Below are positions 31,449 to 32,879 of a DNA stretch of 34,552 nt, one piece after another. Made by a program: the position numbers and the translations under genes. How positions within the stretch are numbered: the first letter of the stretch is position 1; every line of letters starts with the position of its first letter. The notes below the pieces were generated by a model. It was not told the DNA's origin, ran no database searches, and saw only the letters and a list, made by a program, of their open reading frames with translations. This DNA is from Actinomycetota bacterium (GTDB taxonomy: Bacteria > Actinomycetota > Acidimicrobiia > Acidimicrobiales > MedAcidi-G1): the NCBI GenBank assembly GCA_014381745.1, contig JACNLA010000025.1:1-34552 (forward strand), written 5' to 3'.

Positions 31449-31667
31449 GCCGCCGAGGTGCGTCCGCTCCTCCTACTGGCGCAAAGTCGTACGCGTCCCC
31501 ACCTCGGCACCCTGCCCTCCCAACCCGGCACTCCGCCCTGTCGGCCTGGTGTCCAGGTCAGATGGGCGACTCCCACCCGGGGGCGGGTTGCCGCGTCTGG
31601 CTGGCTGGTCGTCTCCTTCGCTCCGGTTGAGCCTGGGAGTCCAGCGGCACTTGAATTGCTGGGTGTC
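31449..31667. other. Stretch without a convincing gene
   Basis: The only open frame here (plus strand, 31434-32039) lacks family features and runs antisense through the HTH gene, so I do not call it. With the hairpin before it, this gives about 266 bp between udk and the minus-strand HTH gene with nothing further visible. Confidence 0.6.
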
Positions 31668-31979
31668 TCAGGGGGCCAACCTGTACCTGGAGTCCTCGAA
31701 CACGGCCGTCACCTCGAGGTGCCCTCCGAGGCCCTCAACCACGTTTCGGAGCGTCGACAGCATCGGGTCGCCGCCGTTTTCAATTCCAGACAACGTCGGC
31801 TGGGTCACAGACAACCGGCTTGCCAGGGTTGCCTGCGTAGTTTCCAGAGTCCGTCGGAGCTCACCGAGGGTGTAGGCCAACTCCTCGGAATCCATCTCAG
31901 CCTTGTACCGCTCAACCCGCGCCCGACGCTCCGAATCGCGGTTGATCGGTTCTGCCAGCTCCCTGAACCTTCGTGCCAT
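31668..31979 (-). CDS. XRE-family HTH antitoxin (HigA-like), now without a working toxin
   Basis: 103 residues. The N-terminus MARRFRELAEPINRDSERRARVERYKAE (written here in part: MARRFRELAEPI then RVERYKAEMD) is typical of HTH antitoxins that follow HigB/Gp49-type toxins. The helix-turn-helix is at about residues 40-90, with LASRLSVTQPTLSGIENG. Upstream on the same strand, the reading frame that should hold the toxin is reduced to its first ~16 codons and last few codons. The antitoxin ATG is 2 nt after a TGA in the toxin tail frame (TGACAATG), the usual spacing of such pairs. It probably still represses its own promoter. It differs in GC content from the flanking genes. Confidence 0.85.
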   Translation of the reverse strand: MARRFRELAEPINRDSERRARVERYKAEMDSEELAYTLGELRRTLETTQATLASRLSVTQPTLSGIENGGDPMLSTLRNVVEGLGGHLEVTAVFEDSRYRLAP

Positions 31980-31981
31980 TG

Positions 31982-32052
31982 TCAGTTCCCTTCTCGGTCG
32001 CTTCGTTCCACCCTGATCCGAACTCGGCGGTGTAGTTGACCTCCCAGTTCAA
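31982..32052 (-). pseudogene. Internally deleted HigB/Gp49-like toxin remnant
   Basis: Reading the minus strand from TTG 32052 gives LNWEVNYTAEFGSGWN, which matches the N-terminal pattern of phage-derived Gp49/HigB-type RNase toxins (WEVxYTxEFxxWW). After about 16 codons the match stops and the frame runs through the start of the antitoxin gene. In another frame, the sequence just before the antitoxin reads ERSDREGN then TGA (31984-31982), a plausible toxin C-terminus. The simplest reading is an internal deletion of most of the toxin gene that kept both ends. The homology is short and judged by eye. Confidence 0.55.
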
Positions 32053-32058
32053 TTGCTG

Positions 32059-32093
32059 AGCATAGGGTTCGGCCAGTATTGGGTCAACCCTAT
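32059..32093 (-). promoter_or_regulatory. Promoter and operator of the decayed toxin-antitoxin locus
   Basis: On the minus strand, TTGACC (32087-32082) and TATGCT (32064-32059) are separated by exactly 17 bp, a good -35/-10 pair. Transcription would begin about at the TTG at 32052. The inverted repeat ATAGGGTT/AACCCTAT (plus strand 32062-32069 and 32086-32093, 16 bp apart) covers both boxes, as expected for autorepression by the HTH antitoxin. Confidence 0.6.
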
Positions 32094-32177
32094 AATCGGG
32101 AAGGAGTTGAGACTGCCTGTCACATCTGGCCTACAGAATGGCTCCATGGAAGTCAGCCTAGGTAATAACAGACTATT

Positions 32178-32196
32178 TCAGATCATAACAATCTGA
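32178..32196 (+). promoter_or_regulatory. Small inverted repeat just before the ComF-like gene
   Basis: TCAGAT (32178-32183) and ATCTGA (32191-32196) form a 6-bp inverted repeat with a 7-nt spacer in locally AT-rich DNA (CATAACA between the arms), touching the ATG at 32196. It may be part of the promoter or an operator; function unknown. Confidence 0.35.
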
Positions 32197-32879
32197 TGCC
32201 ACCTCGTGAGGAGATGGGTCCGACTTACCTGCGTGGTCTGGTTCAGGTGTCCGCCTCCTGCCACCGGTGTCCTCTGGACCTTTCCGGGCCCTGCTCCACC
32301 TGCGTTCGCACGCTCGGGCCCGAACCGCTCCTGAAGGTCCCCACTGGCATCGACCGGGTTCGGGCCCTCACCACCTACCGGGGCCCCGGGGGACGCATCG
32401 TGCGCTCCATCAAGTACGCCAACGGCCGCACGCCCGTCGCCGACCTTGGCCGAGCCATGGCAGTGCTCGTCCCCAACCCACCCGACATCGTCACATGGGT
32501 ACCCACCACCGTTGAACGCCGTGGACGCCGCGGCTTCGACCAGGCCCAGGAACTCGCCAGATCAGTCGCCACAGCACTCGGCCGGCCCTGCCGGCGCCTC
32601 CTGGCCCGCGCCCCGGGACAGGCCCAGACCAGGCTGGCCGTACGCCCGCGCCGACAGGGTCCACACCTTCGGGCCCGAACCGCAGCTTCCGGCTCCAGCG
32701 TGCTGCTGGTCGACGACGTCACCACCACCGGCGCCAGCCTCAACGCCGCCGCCGTTGCGCTACGGGCAGCCGGAGCCACCAGCATCGAGGCCGTGGTGGT
32801 CGCCGCCACCCAACCGGGGAATGAGCGGGCCCGATTGTCGGACAGGTCGATAGGGTCGGCCCGTGGAAGAACACGCTGA
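32196..32879 (+). CDS. ComF-family phosphoribosyltransferase-like protein
   Basis: 227 residues. The N-terminus has four Cys in CHRCPLDLSGPCSTC, a zinc-finger-like start common to ComF/GntX proteins. The phosphoribosyltransferase fold follows: IKYANGRTPVADLGRAM, PTTVERRGRRGFDQAQELA, and the PRPP-binding loop VLLVDDVTTTGAS near residue 170. In transformable bacteria ComF takes part in DNA uptake; elsewhere the role is unclear, and no other competence gene is in the window. ATG 32196 is used; ATG 32214 is possible but has GAGGAG directly touching it. The 3' end overlaps the next gene by 17 bp. Confidence 0.84.
   Translation: MPPREEMGPTYLRGLVQVSASCHRCPLDLSGPCSTCVRTLGPEPLLKVPTGIDRVRALTTYRGPGGRIVRSIKYANGRTPVADLGRAMAVLVPNPPDIVTWVPTTVERRGRRGFDQAQELARSVATALGRPCRRLLARAPGQAQTRLAVRPRRQGPHLRARTAASGSSVLLVDDVTTTGASLNAAAVALRAAGATSIEAVVVAATQPGNERARLSDRSIGSARGRTR
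32851..32856 (+). promoter_or_regulatory. Putative -10 element inside the comF-like gene
   Basis: TAGGGT ends 6 nt before the GTG at 32863, with no ribosome binding site. It fits the leaderless pattern seen elsewhere, and here lies within the 3' end of the upstream gene. Confidence 0.4.

Follow-up and report, generated by a model that had tools for sequence, protein, structure and literature searches.

A small locus lies on the minus strand between udk and comF in the stretch of DNA that we analyzed (hereafter the window, 34,552 nucleotides, positions 1 to 34,552 of contig JACNLA010000025.1, assembly GCA_014381745.1), which comes from an Actinomycetota bacterium of the MedAcidi-G1 lineage. 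Its main gene is an intact ORF of 103 amino acids (31668..31979, minus strand) that encodes an HTH protein of the XRE type. The HTH_3 domain was matched with 32.2 bits (cut-off 23), consistent with the intact HTH antitoxin proposed by the first-pass annotation, and NCBIfam antitoxin models gave matches below their cut-offs only. When the profile of this antitoxin family was compared with solved structures, the best match was HigA2 of Mycobacterium tuberculosis (positions 7-99, E 5.9e-23), followed by HigA3 (E 2.6e-17). The gene therefore has the character of the HigA-type HTH (XRE) antitoxins of HigBA-kind type II toxin-antitoxin (TA) systems. A presumed ribosome-binding site, GAGAAGGGA (31987..31995, minus strand), is located 7 nt before the ATG. 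In its own genome (2,187,117 bases, 44 contigs), the antitoxin had one match at E <= 0.001, and a separate scan of a collection of genome contigs with the antitoxin gave one distant match only.

Upstream of this gene, the -35/-10 pair with 17-bp spacing reported previously was recovered. The -35 hexamer TTGACC (32082..32087) and the -10 hexamer TATGCT (32059..32064), both on the minus strand, form a sigma-70-type promoter, the sole promoter-like match (TTGACC-17-TATGCT, 32087-32059) in the region 31600-32250, the mean for shuffled sequences being 0.1. This promoter is placed inside a perfect 8-bp inverted repeat, ATAGGGTT-N16-AACCCTAT (32062..32093), which is a predicted operator; at the sequence level, an inverted repeat overlapping the promoter is what a HigBA-kind system would be expected to have. 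On the minus strand, TATGCT is followed by 6 nt, a TTG codon (32052), AAC, and the codons of WEVNYTAEFGSGW. Because the TTG comes only 6 nt after the -10 hexamer, the start is predicted to be leaderless, as had been suggested before. A similar arrangement was observed in related loci: of the 84 in which a toxin start codon could be located, 65 have a TANNNT motif whose last base lies 4-10 nt ahead of that codon (the count is 0-26 at eleven shifted control positions), and these include eight of the 12 loci in this test that have only an N-terminal toxin stub. Much of the family is thus predicted to have a leaderless toxin start, which the window appears to have retained.

A -10 hexamer directly before the start codon and Trp recurs in much of the toxin family, which suggests that some higB2-type genes may carry an annotated start too far upstream. 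In the available part of PMC11205783, the HigA2 operator ATATCAC-N6-GTGATAT is placed inside the annotated higB2 gene; a misplaced start could explain this location.

The same source, in the part available, lists eight HigA2 binding sites in the M. tuberculosis genome, and the antitoxin in the window might similarly have been co-opted as a regulator of other genes, a role that the first-pass annotation had also raised. We consider this improbable. A search of the genome of the window for ATAGGG-N20-CCCTAT gave a single exact copy, no copy with one mismatch, and 14 copies with two mismatches (18 for a control pattern). With a single exact operator and no excess of near copies, and hence no further operator sites for such a regulator in this genome, a wider regulon is unsupported.

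Between the promoter and the antitoxin gene, only a remnant of a toxin gene was found. To describe it, a toxin profile was built from 34 intact toxins (L009 and L100, in which a break falls in the last profile columns, are among them) and aligned, with tolerance for frameshifts, to the sequence preceding each antitoxin gene. In the window, columns 1-18 of the profile matched directly before the antitoxin with a score of 32.2 (31993..32046, minus strand), the strong part being WEVNYTAEF (32046-32020). None of 150 dinucleotide shuffles of this stretch reached that score (mean 15.4, maximum 22.0), in line with the earlier reading of WEVNYTAEF as a toxin N-terminus. The residues past WEVNYTAEF may belong either to the toxin or to the junction, so we put the remnant at about 9-18 codons, and a complete toxin upstream of the antitoxin, as in a HigBA-kind system, is not present. 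The mechanical ORF that starts at the TTG and begins with the stub (31912..32052, minus strand) has no stop before the antitoxin gene, which it overlaps in another frame to 31912. Neither Pfam nor NCBIfam gave a match in this ORF. The similarity of the stub is to the N-terminus of Gp49-type toxins (PF05973). In the two toxins tested, the PF05973 model starts to match only at residue 12-13, so that the stub alone falls short of it.

It might be argued that the similarity arose by chance and that a toxin was never present, as the strong match is limited to nine residues and the domain databases are blank on the stub ORF. This is extremely improbable given the shuffling result, and the place, strand, and start of the stub all fit; moreover, a similar anatomy occurs in 12 other loci. 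Neither of the two outcomes that would have spoken against a decayed toxin, an insignificant N-terminal alignment or relatives that never had a toxin, was obtained. On the other hand, the toxin-like tail that had been described (REGN followed by TGA, 31982..31996, minus strand) is not demonstrable as a toxin remnant. It consists of a few residues, and we do not count it because its frame differs from that of the stub and it coincides with GAGAAGGGA; by eye, ATEKGTD in the frame of the stub is about as good a likeness of a toxin tail. The locus thus combines an intact antitoxin with a broken toxin of which a recognizable remnant is left, the features of an orphan antitoxin.

The nearest relative (L002), found in another genus of the same family, has an antitoxin with 65% identity. 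Its half-sites ATAGGG-N20-CCCTAT have the same spacing as in the window (by eye), and its -10 hexamer TATGCT likewise lies 6 nt before the start codon. The longest inverted repeat detected there by script is a different one, CCCTATGAG-N12-CTCATAGGG, with one half-site in common, implying that the operator in L002 may be more complex. The L002 toxin is full-length with one in-frame TAG, a single stop that could be a sequencing error. Alignment of the window with L002 did not resolve the position of the 3' breakpoint of the toxin deletion. Codon-position identities between the two antitoxins are 0.70/0.78/0.42, and dN/dS is 0.16 with a high dS (1.82), a ratio which can date partly from before the toxin was lost. 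The window antitoxin stops right after the conserved part and does not have the C-terminal tail seen in L002. A further locus (L012) in the genus of L002 has only the second half of the antitoxin and no toxin; its upstream gene, the same as in L002, we take to be amidohydrolase-like.

These three loci were all that we found among 48 genomes of the family, and none has an intact toxin. They look like stages of decay: a stop codon (L002), a gutted toxin (the window), and half an antitoxin (L012). In the same 48 genomes, only two Gp49 genes exceeded the cut-off, the stop-broken gene of L002 and a divergent gene in the genome of the window. The latter, above the Pfam cut-off, is followed by an HTH-like gene (by eye), and the two form an apparently intact pair (L191; 1465-1824 and 1132-1452 of contig C19, minus strand). 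As this Gp49 gene is divergent and has its own HTH-like neighbor, a role of the window antitoxin against it is not evident. Another contig of this genome (C18) has two small neighboring ORFs (L193; 1201-1455 and 1465-1728, plus strand) with a Gp49 match of 21.1 bits, below the cut-off; they are presumably a Phd/RelE-type pair.

We also examined the site of the locus within the genus. The segment 31671..32226, which carries the locus, has no counterpart in the alignable udk-comF spacers of same-genus genomes. Spacer homology extends up to 31669 (best in G006) and resumes from 32227 (G003 and G005), and the antitoxin stop codon (31668-31670) sits at the left junction with the spacer common to the genus. 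In G003, G005, and G006, both flanks are present and the locus is absent, indicating that about 555 bp were either inserted here or lost there; either the locus thus arrived recently in this species or the other three have lost it. The G004 spacer is short and too diverged for placing the edges, the G001 contig ends before comF, and neither udk nor comF was found in G002. None of the six other same-genus genomes has the antitoxin at E <= 1e-6, and weaker HTH matches occur in G002 and G003.

To place the window among its relatives, related antitoxin loci were gathered from relatives, the class, and the order, using the upper parts of the match lists (at most 12 candidates per genome were scored in the class and order searches). 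At a threshold of 65 bits for the antitoxin, this gave 117 unique loci, of which 105 remained after omission of 12 that scored under 75 bits. The upstream neighbors of two related antitoxins were identified as Gp49 (PF05973; 73.0 and 65.4 bits). Among the matches listed, an intact Gp49-type toxin lies directly upstream of the antitoxin in 59 of the 105 loci, which argues for the HigB/HigA-type locus with a gutted toxin that had been proposed. The expectation that relatives would have the full toxin was borne out in this form, but not at the same chromosomal site, where no relative with a full toxin was found and the same-genus spacers lack the locus. The other loci, among the matches listed, comprise 19 with a full-length toxin containing a stop or frameshift (an upper bound, since assemblies contain errors), 13 with an N-terminal toxin stub, nine with only a C-terminal toxin part, and five with no toxin found. 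A broken, truncated, or missing toxin is therefore seen in at most 46 of the 105.

The 13 stub loci (the window, L135 at the place of L011, L093, L150, L178, L106, L091, L172, L168, L087, L169, L146, and L071) include nine N-terminal stubs, two N-terminal pieces joined to C-terminal ones, and two cases near a contig edge. L093 and L150 carry one common deletion, so that the number of independent events is smaller than 13. Stubs are 8-18 codons long in nine loci and 33-49 codons in four. The closest parallel to the window is L135, with 16 codons and an out-of-frame break followed by the antitoxin. When shuffling was applied to eight of the 13, seven scored above all 150 shuffles and L091 was reached by three of 150; the other five (L150, L087, L169, L146, and L071) have scores of 31.8 to 125. 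Retention of the promoter is not clearly favored, with the N-terminal side kept in 13 loci and the C-terminal side in nine. A separate idea, that the stub peptide serves as a translated leader, was rejected as a general rule: the stub frame ends before, overlaps, or fuses with the antitoxin, patternless among the 13, and the peptide is thus unlikely to be the kept item.

Genus g215 (L164, L168-L174, and L180) offers a varied picture, with the toxin intact, stop-broken, frameshifted, or reduced to an N-terminal stub or a C-terminal part depending on the locus; the antitoxins at those loci are still above 75 bits.

The genome of the window is an assembly of 44 contigs, and an assembly or sequencing artefact might have excised the toxin. 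Such an error is very improbable here: the locus lies inside a 110,566-base contig, and large toxin deletions also occur in other assemblies, two of them (L178 and L244) in the one-contig genome G575.

We then considered the toxins and their partners. A toxin profile was searched against 397 genomes of the order, with at most 11 candidates scored per genome, and gave 63 full-length, stop-free toxins among the matches listed; compared with solved structures, the profile had no match at 0.001. Within 400 nt downstream, 58 of the 63 (among the matches listed) have an HTH antitoxin at E <= 1e-15, and two have a weaker one (about 54 bits). Downstream of the remaining three (L235, L236, and L237) is another small ORF, which by eye is similar among them (motif RRRRDLGL-x-P-x-SELHDEF...LLAEAEEYL), perhaps another antitoxin type. 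No toxin among the matches listed was without a downstream candidate partner, implying that in this set toxins die first. Set against the upper bound of 46 in 105 antitoxin loci, these 63 partnered toxins (among the matches listed) provide a first count of toxins dying before antitoxins. This order is to be anticipated should earlier loss of the antitoxin kill the cell. A universal rule of this kind is disfavored by E. coli, in which orphan toxins are also abundant, according to the accessible part of PMC10790755.

A natural series was observed in genus g41. An intact toxin is present in G693, G697, and G449, and G391 and G627 have an 18-codon stub and its junction in common. G575 (L244) has lost the toxin together with the start codon, and a promoter remnant with part of the operator is joined directly to the region before the antitoxin start (by eye). 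The downstream flank aligns in all six genomes and the upstream flank in five; in G449 the upstream alignment is partial and at another offset. G588 also has an intact toxin; its match is limited to the TA genes, indicating that it is located elsewhere. All six loci retain 133 antitoxin codons. Antitoxin dN/dS is 0.15-0.21 among the toxin-less species and 0.16-0.46 among the toxin-bearing ones. We do not take the value of 0.15 for L093/L150 as clean purifying selection after toxin loss: the G391 antitoxin has a dS of 0.11-0.13 to toxin-bearing species and 0.32 to G627, so that recombination is probable and the ratio is not purely post-loss. The 18 stub codons differ between G391 and G627 by three nonsynonymous changes and one synonymous change, too few for a test.

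Nucleotides 101-200 of the antitoxin (L239, L240, and L243) are 100% identical among G391, G693, and G627, with a whole-gene dS of 0.13-0.32. This stretch is possibly a recombination tract or a further DNA constraint.

Taken together, the locus is very probably the remnant of a type II TA operon from which the toxin was deleted, leaving a leaderless promoter, an operator, and an antitoxin that is likely a self-repressing orphan. The starting operon would have had a Gp49-type toxin gene followed by a HigA2-like HTH antitoxin gene, between udk and comF. A deletion would then have taken the toxin beyond about 9-18 codons and spared the promoter, the surrounding operator, and the antitoxin with its ribosome-binding site. 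The likely present product would be an orphan antitoxin repressing its own promoter, and its loss may be slowed by protection from the toxins that incoming relatives carry. As the toxin must go before the antitoxin can, decay should pass through a stage in which the antitoxin still works and the toxin does not.

Within this explanation, the antitoxin could well be a neutral relic, without function since the toxin died and on its way out, a possibility that we regard as real though short of probable. L012 displays what would be the next stage, and both the absence of the antitoxin from the other same-genus genomes and its missing C-terminal tail agree with decay. The intact ORF, HTH core, promoter, and operator point the other way, as does the low dN/dS of the toxin-less g41 antitoxins, clouded by recombination with toxin-bearing versions. 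It is also possible, if rather doubtful, that the orphan has been kept for anti-addiction or immunity, neutralizing related toxins carried by incoming elements. Intact pairs of this kind are common in the order (toxin matches at E <= 1e-20 in 60 of 397 genomes, among the matches listed), and a single place in g41 harbors versions with an intact toxin, a stub, or no toxin. Nevertheless, the 48 family genomes offer as targets only the broken Gp49 gene of L002 and the divergent one with its own HTH neighbor.

More broadly, the anatomy of promoter, operator, stub, and antitoxin might be a recurrent and selectively kept end state, an autorepressed immunity gene in lineages where toxin-bearing versions still circulate. 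We regard this generalization as unlikely; if it is true, lineages repeatedly reduce HigBA2-like pairs to a lone antitoxin gene that represses itself and provides immunity. Under the preferred reading, a remnant operon with a deleted toxin, the window and its relatives trace the decay of a HigA2-like system through resolved stages, and g41 would permit a direct test of orphan antitoxins as relics versus kept immunity.

Several known systems resemble the locus. The ccd(O157) toxin and antitoxin of E. coli belong to families other than those of the window. That locus is also a decaying chromosomal TA locus (Mine et al. 2009, as given in the accessible part of review PMC7167474), and the same part of the review names deletion and nonsense mutation as routes by which chromosomal TA loci decay. 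In Acinetobacter higBA2, the HigA-type antitoxin autorepresses with the toxin as co-repressor, as stated in the available part of PMC5906591. The closest counterparts are HigBA2 and HigBA3 of M. tuberculosis (antitoxin structures 7ewc and 6lty), whose antitoxins are matched by the family profile of the window antitoxin. Like HigBA2, as far as the available part of PMC11205783 describes it, the locus would have had its toxin gene upstream of the antitoxin gene and has an operator-like inverted repeat (ATAGGG-N20-CCCTAT, compared with ATATCAC-N6-GTGATAT for HigA2). Unlike HigBA2, nearly all of the toxin is deleted and the genome has a single operator site. The likeness concerns the antitoxin, gene order, and operator.

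Because orphan antitoxins and TA decay have already been reported, the kind of locus is known. What is new is the recurrence of the promoter-operator-stub-antitoxin anatomy and the presence, at one place in g41, of versions with an intact toxin, a stub, or no toxin; our literature search, partial in its sources and thus a weak statement, listed no title that deals with N-terminal toxin stubs as a recurring form. Klebsiella (PMC7192599) and E. coli (PMC10790755) harbor orphan antitoxins in abundance, for which anti-addiction and co-option have been proposed, according to the accessible parts of both papers. These are likewise antitoxins without a functional toxin. As described in those parts, these surveys go by ORF and context, whereas the window analysis resolves the promoter, the operator, and what is left of the toxin.
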